A DNA stretch of 61,010 nt from Bryobacterales bacterium (GTDB lineage: Bacteria > Acidobacteriota > Terriglobia > Bryobacterales > Bryobacteraceae), in NCBI GenBank assembly GCA_019261985.1, contig JAFAQY010000066.1:1-61010 (forward strand), read 5' to 3'. Below, piece after piece: positions 58,345 to 61,010 of this stretch. Numbering within the stretch: the stretch's first letter is position 1; the number at the start of each line of letters is the position of its first letter. The translations under genes were made by a program, and so were the position numbers. The notes below the pieces were generated by a model. The model was not told where the DNA came from, made no database searches, and saw only the letters and a program-made list of their open reading frames with translations.

Positions 58345-59856
58345 TCAATTGTCTTCGGCGTCAGTACGCTCAAAGAGGTGCTGCAACGTCTGCAGTTCAG
58401 AGTTGGCCGCGTGAGTGAACGTGCCGGAGAGGATGCCTGAGATACCCCGGAAGGGCTCTCCTACATGCATCCCCCTCGAGTCGATCGTGTACTCGCGAAT
58501 ATTTCGATCATGTTGTGAGCCGCGCATTTTCAAGACCGTAATGCCCCGCCGCATTTCTCCGAACGCTTCGACGTAGCGAAGCAGAATGATGGAGTCTGTC
58601 ACGCTCGAAATGTGTGCCTCCGTCACGGTGGAGCCGCCGAGCAGAGAGGGCGTTGTCGACGTAAACAGGCCTGCGATTTGTTTATCTTTGAGATACGACG
58701 TCAGAGCCAGGACGAATTCGCGGAAAGTCCGCAGCGTGGAAATCCGTTCCAGAGCTGACAGGCTGTCGACCGCGACTCGGGTTGGCCGGAACTCTTCAAT
58801 ATGTTTCTTGATGCGCAAGAGATGGTCCTCCGGAGCGGCGACTTCCGGATATTCACACACGATGCGCAGCCGTCCGGCGCTTTCGAGCGCCGGGAAATCC
58901 ACTCCCCAGCCCAAGGCGTTACGGTAGAGCTGATCACGGCTCTCTTCGAAGGCAAACATGAGGCCGCGTTCGTTTTCGCCCAGGGCCGCGAGAAACTCCG
59001 TCGCGGTGAGCGTCTTGCCGGTACCCGTCGCGCCCGAAATCAGGACCACCGAATCGCGATAGAATCCTCCGCCACACATGGCATCCAGTTCCACGATGCC
59101 GGAGGTAATGCGCGTTTCGGTGGACTTCTGGCGGAGTTCGATGGAGGAGAGTGGGAGCAAGATGATGCCGCTGTCTTCCGCAATCGTGAACGGAAATTCT
59201 CCCTTTGAATGCGAGGCCCCGCGGAACTTCAGGATTTCCAGCGTGCGGCGCCGCTTCTCGTCTTCCAGCGTATTGCGAAGAATGATGACGTTGTCCGTCA
59301 CGTACTCCTCCACCGGCGGATCGCTGTTGCCGGTGTGCTCGGCCGTAATAATGGATGTGACTCCCATATCGCGGAGCTGCCAGGCGACGCGGTATAACTC
59401 GCGCCGAATAACGGCAGGCATGCCGAACTGAACCAGCATGGCTCCGATCGAATCCAGCGAGACCCTTTGCGCGCCGATTTTCTTAACTGCGTTGTCGATT
59501 CGGGCCATCAGGCCGCCGAGATCATAGTCGCCGATCGTGACCGGCTCATCGCGAGGGTGCAGCGAGCCATCCACGAAGATCCACTTGCCTTCGCTCTCCC
59601 ATTTCGCGATCTCCCAGCCGAGCGAGGACAAGTTCCGGCGGATGTCGTCGGGTTTTTCCTCGAATGTCACGAAACAGCCAGCCTCCCCGGCGTGTTCGAT
59701 TCCGGCGGCCAGGAACTGACCGGCGAGAATCGTTTTCGCGCTGCCGGGCCCCCCGCTGACGAGAGTGGTGCGGCCCGCCGGGAGTCCGCCGTTGCTGATC
59801 AGGTCGAACCCTGGAATGTAAGTCTTTAGCCTCTTCAGTTCTCGTGGATTGTTCAT
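58345..59856 (-). CDS. kaiC: KaiC-family double RecA-like ATPase
   Basis: 503 residues, close to cyanobacterial KaiC (519). CI domain: Walker A GGPGSAKT (35-42), catalytic Glu pair in TFEE (about 66-67). CII domain: Walker A GATGTGKT (275-282), AFEE (304-305). The autophosphorylation region reads VTEAHISSVTD (411-421): T412, S417 and S418 stand where T426, S431 and T432 are in cyanobacterial KaiC, so Thr432 is Ser here. The motif MRGSQHDRNIREYTI before the tail is preserved. The tail is NSELQTLQHLFERTDAEDN. ATG 59856 follows the kaiB stop directly. It should bind and hydrolyse ATP as a hexamer and autophosphorylate. Confidence 0.93.
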   Translation of the reverse strand: MNNPRELKRLKTYIPGFDLISNGGLPAGRTTLVSGGPGSAKTILAGQFLAAGIEHAGEAGCFVTFEEKPDDIRRNLSSLGWEIAKWESEGKWIFVDGSLHPRDEPVTIGDYDLGGLMARIDNAVKKIGAQRVSLDSIGAMLVQFGMPAVIRRELYRVAWQLRDMGVTSIITAEHTGNSDPPVEEYVTDNVIILRNTLEDEKRRRTLEILKFRGASHSKGEFPFTIAEDSGIILLPLSSIELRQKSTETRITSGIVELDAMCGGGFYRDSVVLISGATGTGKTLTATEFLAALGENERGLMFAFEESRDQLYRNALGWGVDFPALESAGRLRIVCEYPEVAAPEDHLLRIKKHIEEFRPTRVAVDSLSALERISTLRTFREFVLALTSYLKDKQIAGLFTSTTPSLLGGSTVTEAHISSVTDSIILLRYVEAFGEMRRGITVLKMRGSQHDRNIREYTIDSRGMHVGEPFRGISGILSGTFTHAANSELQTLQHLFERTDAEDN

Positions 59857-60174
59857 TTACGGATTCCTTGGGCGAATATATTCCTTAAGGCCCAATAATT
59901 GAATGAGTCTATGAGGATCTCCCATATCGCCGACCAACCGCCGCGTAGGCTCGGGTAGCTGGCGAATCAGCGTAGGGGTTGCGAGTATCTTTTCTCGCTC
60001 GGCCTCATCCGGATTTTCGGTTACGTCAATCACCTCCAGACGAACGCAGTTTCCAAGGAACTCCGTACACATCCCTTGTACTCCCTCGACTGCTCGAAGA
60101 GACCGTTGGGAATGACCCGCTACATACAAGCGCAGCAAAACGTCCGTCGCAGAACCCGGCTTGGCTGACTCCAT
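59857..60174 (-). CDS. kaiB: KaiB family protein
   Basis: 105 residues, usual KaiB length. Pattern: LLRLYVAGHSQRSLRAVEGV, CVRLEVIDVTENPDEAERE, ILATPTLIRQLPEPTRRLVG and DPHRLIQLLGL. These match KaiB, whose C-terminal half switches between two folds to bind KaiC CI. The start ATG shares its last base with the stop of the KaiA/RsbU-like gene (TAATG), and the stop is directly followed by the kaiC ATG. Confidence 0.93.
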   Translation of the reverse strand: MESAKPGSATDVLLRLYVAGHSQRSLRAVEGVQGMCTEFLGNCVRLEVIDVTENPDEAEREKILATPTLIRQLPEPTRRLVGDMGDPHRLIQLLGLKEYIRPRNP

Positions 60175-60539
60175 TACCGGACGCCCGCTCGTGCCTGCTC
60201 TCGATAAAACAACGCAAGCTCACCGACCATCTTCACGAGAAGTAACCGCGAATGCCGCACGCACGCTTTTGCCATACCGTGCGGCTTGTTTCTAACAAGC
60301 ATCGCGAGCGCCGACAGATGGATTGCGATAACATCTTGCGGAAGCGAATCCGCATCGCCTAACCTCCTCGCCAATGATCGAACTTTAGCAAGCGTGTGGC
60401 GATCCGTACCAGCGACCGATTCTTCGACTGCAAGCTGAACCACAGCGCAGTATTCTCCAACCGCGGCTGTAAATAACTGAGGACGCTCGCGGGCCAGTTC
60501 GCAATTGCCGAAGGTTGAAATGGCGTCAGGGTGGGACAT
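60174..60539 (-). CDS. KaiA C-domain / RsbU N-domain-like helical protein
   Basis: About 121 residues from ATG 60539; a frame to TTG 60677 would give 167. Residues 25-115 are helical: LFTAAVGEYCAVVQLAVEES, HTLAKVRSLARRLGDADSLP, QDVIAIHLSALAMLVRNK and ACVRHSRLLLVKMVGELALF YREQ. The pattern P-x-x-V/I-I-x-I-H-x-x-x-L in helix 3 and the final L-x-Y/A-x-Y-R/Q-E match what I remember of RsbU_N (IPPEEIISIHRKVLKEL) and KaiA (VPVTKVVEIHMELMDEF), two homologous domains. RsbU_N recruits the RsbT kinase; KaiA activates KaiC. Overlap with kaiB suggests it is the clock's third component. The fold call is moderate, the KaiA-like role is inference. Confidence 0.65.
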   Translation of the reverse strand: MSHPDAISTFGNCELARERPQLFTAAVGEYCAVVQLAVEESVAGTDRHTLAKVRSLARRLGDADSLPQDVIAIHLSALAMLVRNKPHGMAKACVRHSRLLLVKMVGELALFYREQARAGVR

Positions 60540-60691
60540 CTTTTCTGTTATGCCGTCATCTGCATAGGGCTTCGATTCTTCTCGCTGAAATGCGATCACG
60601 TAAGAAAGCCATTCTACCCGTTTGGGATCCGCCTCCTTGAGCGCCGGCTGCGTGCATAAGTTCCTGTTGGACCACAATGCGTCGACTAGCG

Positions 60692-60797
60692 AAGTTCGTC
60701 ACAACCGCTCCCTTGCGGTCGGGGCTCGGAATAGGCGCTTGCATTTACCGCCACTTACAGAGCCGCGACCGTCGGGACGCGGTCGAGTGACGAACTT
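60692..60797. repeat. MITE-like inverted repeat upstream of the Kai genes
   Basis: AAGTTCGTCAC at 60692-60702 is the exact inverse of GTGACGAACTT at 60787-60797. Inner arms CCGCTCCCTTGCGGTC and GAGCCGCGACCGTCGG are imperfect inverses. A different family from A and B. It separates the kinase fragment from the Kai genes and may carry or break a promoter. Confidence 0.6.
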
Positions 60798-60812
60798 GGG
60801 CGAGCCGCCGCG

Positions 60813-61010
60813 CTATTGAGCCATTGATCCTGTCAAGGGCACTTTATCCAGAGTGCCGGAATACTGTTCTCCTCGGATTGGTTCACCGCTTGGCAGCGTG
60901 AAGTAGAAGGTTGATCCGGCTCCGGGCGTAGACTCGATCCAGATTCGCCCGCCGTACCTTTGGACAATCCGGCGGCAGATGGCCAGACCCATACCATTGC
61001 CTGGGATTTT
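60813..61010 (-). CDS. Sensor histidine kinase, C-terminal end (cut by window edge)
   Basis: The partial frame runs off the right end and ends in TAG at 60813-60815. It holds the end of an HATPase domain: [20 protein letters not shown] (G2 box), [20 protein letters not shown], then a tail [20 protein letters not shown]. Histidine kinases often accompany kaiBC in bacteria and archaea as presumed output or input partners. The bulk of the gene is outside the window, so its sensor type is unknown. Confidence 0.85.

Follow-up and report, generated by a model that had tools for sequence, protein, structure and literature searches.

Gene organization of the locus

The operon described here occupies the end of a 61,010-nucleotide (nt) stretch of DNA, hereafter the window, which is contig JAFAQY010000066.1 of the Bryobacterales bacterium assembly GCA_019261985.1 (Acidobacteriota, family Bryobacteraceae). 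It lies on the minus strand and begins with a gene for a helical protein of 121 amino acids (aa) counted from an ATG (60174..60539; a TTG start farther upstream would give 167 aa), followed by kaiB (59857..60174, 105 aa) and by a clock-type kaiC with two ATPase domains (58345..59856, 503 aa). The first junction, GGTAATGGAG, has a 1-nt overlap, and the second, CCGTAAATGAAC, has 0-nt spacing. Upstream on the same strand, 60813..61010 encodes the last part of a histidine kinase, within its ATPase domain (HATPase_c 9.9e-12). This kinase is seen only in part because the contig, exactly 61010 bases long, cuts the gene, and its membership of the operon is uncertain. This close packing of three genes behind a kinase end had been noted in an earlier sequence-only reading of the window and was confirmed on the minus strand. 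The locus is best interpreted as a kaiABC operon that belongs to a Bryobacteraceae-type lineage of Acidobacteriota.

The assignment of kaiC is based on a match to the Pfam KaiC ATPase family (2.3e-110), on NCBIfam circ_KaiC (547.4 bits, cut-off 546.25) and on PDB sequence matches. KaiB contains the thioredoxin-like domain of its family (PF07689, 1e-22, above the cut-off) but scores too low for NCBIfam circ_KaiB (67 bits against a cut-off of 145.3). The small gene, assigned from a fold model and profile matches as a stand-alone KaiA C-terminal-type domain, is not a chance reading frame, since one protein search yielded 31 relatives and a later one 80, with lengths of 94-151 aa. A foreign G+C island was ruled out, as G+C is even along the contig, and a defence system was rejected, the mad8 match of KaiC being partial and the small protein having no match at all.

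Fold and sequence affinity of the small protein

The 121-aa protein is best read, from its sequence and a structural model, as a stand-alone KaiA C-terminal domain, which in KaiA is the part that activates KaiC. Helices are predicted at residues 20-43, 47-62, 67-84 and 87-120, and the AlphaFold2 model consists of four helices with a predicted local distance difference test score (pLDDT) of 89.8 and a predicted template modelling score (pTM) of 0.82. A Foldseek search with this model placed KaiA C-domains at ranks 1, 2, 4, 6, 7 and 8, and the predicted fold thus agrees with the KaiA/RsbU-like four-helix bundle anticipated in the sequence-only reading and is KaiA-C-like.

At the sequence level, homology to KaiA was reached only through longer relatives of the protein (described below). 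Against PDB sequences, the lone small-protein sequence matched two designed proteins only (expectation value, E, 0.3), and the narrow profile A2 did not find KaiA. With the mixed profile A3, KaiA proteins were the 7 best of 16 PDB sequence matches (9.3e-4 to 0.086), and with profile A6, which consists of nine C-domains of longer relatives, they were the 8 best of 14 (1.9e-4 to 0.094). A search with the C-domain of the receiver-type relative had found only itself and one PAS-type homologue, P0082; profile A5, which included the PAS part of P0082, was rejected because only PAS-type proteins were present among the best 60 of its 154 matches, and A6, from which P0082 was excluded, took its place.

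Several Pfam results weigh against assignment to KaiA. Single-sequence matches lean to RsbU_N, which was matched in 55 of the 80 family members, and among the long types RsbU_N was matched in 2 of 9 (best 0.00042) and KaiA in 1 of 9 (0.0045 for the single domain), all of these matches being below the cut-offs; the window's own protein has one sub-threshold RsbU_N match (16.8 of 25.5 bits). Pfam KaiA (PF07688) gave no match in the window's genome, with a positive Synechococcus control. On these grounds the small protein could be an RsbU_N-type partner-switch adaptor for an RsbT-like kinase or a STAS protein, with KaiBC as its switch and without KaiC activation, and a STAS-domain gene does lie downstream of kaiC in one genome (G009). 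The KaiA C-domain and the RsbU N-terminal domain have related folds, as described in the available text of PMC11372060, and weak RsbU_N matches are therefore expected under either explanation. No PP2C phosphatase domain was found by Pfam in the 121-aa protein, so the architecture of RsbU is absent, and RsbU_N at E 0.001 was found nowhere in the window's genome, with a positive Bacillus subtilis control. The profiles A3 and A6 matched KaiA among PDB sequences, with no RsbU-named protein at E up to 10, and the gene pairs strictly with one KaiC clade (see below). Compared with B. subtilis RsbU itself, whose N-terminal domain has a related fold and gives the sub-threshold match, the small protein lacks the phosphatase domain and has a different gene neighbourhood. 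An adaptor of this kind is accordingly considered improbable. Of the sequence-only reading, in which the protein stands in for KaiA, the KaiA-C-like predicted fold and the ranking of KaiA C-domains as first matches of profiles that include the longer relatives both held, with RsbU_N staying below threshold; as a general trait, the coupling to the neighbouring kinase was not supported.

Relatives with sensor domains

Profile A2 identified 10 carriers of the KaiA-like domain among 237 genomes of the same family, six of which encode longer proteins that have this domain at their C-terminal end (E 2.4e-20 to 7.0e-11), and profile A3 raised the number of carriers to 13 by adding genomes G511, G565 and G499. 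The sequences preceding the C-domain differ between genomes. In G580 it is a receiver domain (Response_reg, 67.2 bits, above the cut-off) in which direct reading of the sequence shows the acidic pair to be kept, along with the phospho-acceptor Asp and the conserved Ser and Lys. A PAS domain precedes it in G594 and G595 (PAS_4, above the cut-off), and two do so in G499. The G647 protein combines a PAS domain with a receiver match below threshold, and that of G510 has a receiver-like stretch that matches no Pfam family. The open frame of G596 is similar to that of G594 but shorter, and gave no PAS match. The model of the receiver-type protein has a mean pLDDT of 73.2 (85-98 in the C-domain blocks), and Foldseek placed the KaiA C-domain at ranks 1-5 for it, at E above 0.2.

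Other samples gave few carriers. Profile A1 matched 3 of 61 genomes in a genus-to-class sample, and a scan of genome contigs with A2 gave three loci, in the Terriglobia metagenome-assembled genomes Centralia_187 and Centralia_36 and in Bryobacteraceae JOPF118. In a partial phylum sample, in which 11 candidates were scored per genome among the matches listed, A2 and A3 matched 2 of 396 genomes and revealed no further carriers, one being the window's genome; the second, G451, has a short match interrupted by stop codons, which was taken as chance.

Association with kaiB and one clade of KaiC

The KaiA-like gene immediately precedes kaiB and then kaiC in 10 of the 13 genomes, the window included (kaiC is broken in G596). 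In G510 and G511 the KaiA-like gene is followed by kaiC, with kaiB about 1 kb beyond it, and in G499 neither kaiB nor kaiC was present in the 16 kb read. The gene is therefore kept beside kaiB/kaiC in 12 of 13 genomes, and the absence from kaiBC loci of relatives, which the sequence-only reading had named as counting against it, was not observed. The KaiA-like domain was found at none of the 22 other kaiB loci whose surroundings were read, a partial count given that kaiB occurs in 45 of the 237 genomes.

Searching the same genomes with the window's KaiC at E 1e-60 gave matches at 41 places in 36 genomes. Twelve of these are 59-100% identical to it, each in a genome carrying the KaiA-like gene, and the remaining 29 are 34-43% identical; Fisher's test gave 2.6e-19 for the table 12, 1, 0, 224, in which the genomes are related and the 12 are spread over 7 genera. 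The KaiA-like gene thus tracks one KaiC clade. In an unrooted tree of 26 KaiCs, the 10 KaiA-coupled sequences form one side of a branch (100/100), within which the four genomes with a single-domain KaiA form one group (100/100). The alignment and tree do not include the kaiC of G596, which is interrupted by stops, or that of G511, which is spread over two frames, as neither has a frame longer than 400 aa. Both kinds of KaiC are held by G565, G595 and G511.

A chance origin, in which an unrelated helical protein merely resembles KaiA, or an artefact, in which the contig has been misbinned into this genome, is very unlikely in view of these data. The profile evidence is independent of gene position, and synteny is kept in 12 of 13 genomes. 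The same single-domain operon is present in four genomes of two genera, with KaiCs 86-91% identical to that of the window, the completeness of the assembly is 98.83% and its contamination 0.65%, and G+C is even along the contig.

Some loci deviate from the common arrangement. In G499 the domain belongs to an orphan two-PAS protein with a KaiA-like C-domain (L088 7525-8619, G499:C71). In G596, kaiC is interrupted by stop codons or shifts of frame (L043 6566-8083) and the KaiA-like frame lacks part of its beginning, indicating either a pseudogene or assembly errors. A divergent extra kaiB is found near KaiA-type loci (L040 10861-11148, L044 3581-3874, L087 4190-4480 and L086 9536-9826), and in L044 (G510) and L086 (G511) this divergent kaiB beyond kaiC is the sole kaiB found at the locus.

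Features of the KaiA-coupled KaiC

Among PDB sequences, the window's KaiC matches 8zn5 (4.1e-185) and cyanobacterial clock KaiCs (about 1e-156 to 1e-148) better than the Rhodobacter protein 8dba (9.1e-97). The features named below were located on the minus strand by alignment. The CI Walker A motif, GGPGSAKT (residues 35-42, 59731..59754), has Ala for the usual Gly before Lys; GSAKT was present in 10 of 10 aligned KaiA-coupled KaiCs and in none of the 16 others, the five PDB KaiCs compared having GTGKT, and this substitution might alter the CI ATPase rate. S417 and S418 (58603..58608) are at the place of the Synechococcus KaiC phosphosites S431/T432, and these two adjacent sites are preceded by a Thr (T426 in Synechococcus), giving TEAHISS in the window. 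Ser-Ser is found in the four single-domain genomes and TEAHIST in the six longer-KaiA rows; in the available text of PMC5520375, Ser-Thr is dominant in KaiC1 and KaiC3, and Ser-Ser in KaiC2.

The A-loop region (residues 462-478, 58423..58473) is followed by a short C-terminal tail of 25 aa (residues 479-503, 58348..58422), to which the small protein is presumed to bind. Across the 10 KaiA-coupled KaiCs this tail is 21-28 aa long. Among the 16 aligned KaiA-less KaiCs, the tail is 93-105 aa long in 13, whereas the other three stop 15, 16 and 4 aa beyond the A-loop region. In the 26 aligned KaiCs, a short tail thus accompanies the KaiA-like gene, with these three short-tailed, KaiA-less sequences as exceptions. 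A KaiA-less KaiC from the window's own genus (L023) matches 8dba through the tail (4.4e-197). The genomes G019, G015 and G018 of this genus have KaiA-less kaiC-kaiB-kaiB loci (L023, L024 and L025, respectively) with KaiC tails of 97-98 aa. A PAS histidine kinase (Pfam) comes next in L023, where L024 and L025 have similar long genes.

Some of these features would also suit a KaiA descendant that is no longer an activator and that, in a stress-type KaiBC switch with no part in timing, serves as a scaffold or as a decoy for KaiB. The Ser-Ser phosphosites, the GSAKT motif and the lost N-terminal sensor could mean drift from a clock, and KaiBC of Legionella and Pseudomonas is linked to stress in the available text of PMC11372060. 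Weighing against this reading, the TEAHIS[S/T] site, both catalytic Glu pairs and the A-loop region are kept in 10 of 10 aligned KaiA-coupled KaiCs, and the last helix is the best-conserved part of the small protein. Loss of activation is regarded as unlikely, and by analogy with known KaiA proteins the small protein probably activates KaiC.

Candidate inputs and outputs

The coupling of the operon to a neighbouring kinase, as first suggested, was not supported as a general trait, since besides the window G463 is the sole locus in which a kinase was identified directly upstream. The G463 kinase is 306 aa long (HisKA and HATPase_c, without a match to any sensor domain), and its gene and the small gene share 4 nt. 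The corresponding genes of the window are 273 nt apart, and a strong imperfect hairpin is predicted in this gap at 60692-60797 (z -3.42 for the whole gap). The window's kinase fragment is 67.5% identical to the G463 kinase over 40 aa and 65-70% identical to kinases of KaiA-less loci over 40-49 aa. Since the fragment is equally close to both kinds, and given the 273-nt gap with its hairpin, co-operation of the kinase with the operon is uncertain. In G580, the link to a phosphorelay would instead be the receiver domain inside KaiA itself.

One segment of the hairpin occurs once in the window and, among 134 loci, only in loci from the same contig. Upstream of the small gene in G012 is an Nramp-Usp gene (Nramp transporter). 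The STAS-domain gene of G009 (L028 5741-6241), on the same strand as kaiC, is a possible partner-switch link. A SasA-type output was rejected, as kaiB is the genome's only KaiB-family match. No match to PF00124 was found in the window's genome, with a positive control; this addresses reaction-centre phototrophy only.

Comparison with known Kai systems

The sequence-only reading took KaiA to be mainly cyanobacterial, which is partly out of date, homologues elsewhere being described in the available text of PMC11372060 and PMC8113500. In the former, KaiA3, which consists of a receiver and a KaiA C-domain and yields KaiC3 phosphorylation cycles in vitro, is known from five non-cyanobacterial genera; its main text names no Acidobacteriota ('acidobacteri' occurs 0 times). 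Set beside the Synechocystis KaiA3-KaiB3-KaiC3 system as described there, the window shares the A-B-C order, the KaiA C-domain and a short-tailed KaiC. The relative G580 is KaiA3-like in having a receiver with the phospho-acceptor Asp before the C-domain, whereas the window's protein has no receiver and other relatives have PAS domains.

Single-domain KaiA proteins, of about 90-200 aa in most cases, are described for Nostocales and Chroococcidiopsidales in the available text of PMC8113500. The window's protein is likewise reduced to the C-domain, but lies outside cyanobacteria and is too divergent for Pfam KaiA. As relatives with a longer KaiA share the same KaiC clade, this reduction was probably independent of that in Nostocales and Chroococcidiopsidales, the tree being unrooted. 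The same text describes kaiABC operons, ascribed to lateral transfer, in one assembly each of Propionibacteriaceae and Planctomycetaceae. These cases have in common with the window a whole kaiABC operon outside cyanobacteria; their KaiA was found by homology to cyanobacterial KaiA, whereas the acidobacterial KaiA is far more divergent and exists in several architectures within one family. The Rhodobacter sphaeroides KaiBC hourglass (8dba) shares KaiB and KaiC with the window, but has no KaiA and has a long coiled KaiC tail; the family's KaiA-less loci resemble this design (L023 being the one compared with 8dba), and the window does not.

In the available text of PMC12879404, circadian homologues are reported only in a cyanobacterial bin, and searches restricted to open-licence PMC papers turned up neither an acidobacterial KaiA nor a fusion of PAS and KaiA. 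KaiA outside cyanobacteria as such having already been published, what this locus adds is an acidobacterial kaiABC lineage whose input domains are interchangeable.

Proposed mechanism and implications

The proposed steps follow the analogy with cyanobacterial KaiA and KaiA3. The small protein would dimerise, bind the KaiC tail and expose the A-loop, thereby driving KaiC autophosphorylation; KaiB would then bind phosphorylated KaiC and capture the small protein, upon which KaiC would dephosphorylate. The window's KaiA, having no N-terminal sensor, would be a constant activator, so that input might enter via ATP/ADP at KaiC, or via the adjacent kinase where one is present, and relatives would take signals in through the receiver or PAS domain on KaiA. 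The cycle might run freely or work as an hourglass dependent on resetting. It is possible, though this is put forward tentatively, that a true KaiABC timer of three proteins operates in this lineage of Acidobacteriota, with the KaiA C-domain as a plug-in module that is used bare or together with a receiver, PAS sensors or both.

KaiA homologues this divergent suggest that surveys based on BLAST or Pfam cut-offs are likely to under-count KaiABC systems. In the available text of PMC11372060, KaiA is taken as the piece that turns a KaiBC timer into a self-sustained clock, and the presence of both designs in one family makes the idea of KaiA versus a coiled tail testable by part swaps. If the proposal is true, the family would be a natural experiment on the conversion of an hourglass to an oscillator by the addition of KaiA, and on the swapping of clock inputs, with the PAS- and receiver-fused KaiAs showing signal entry straight at the clock activator.

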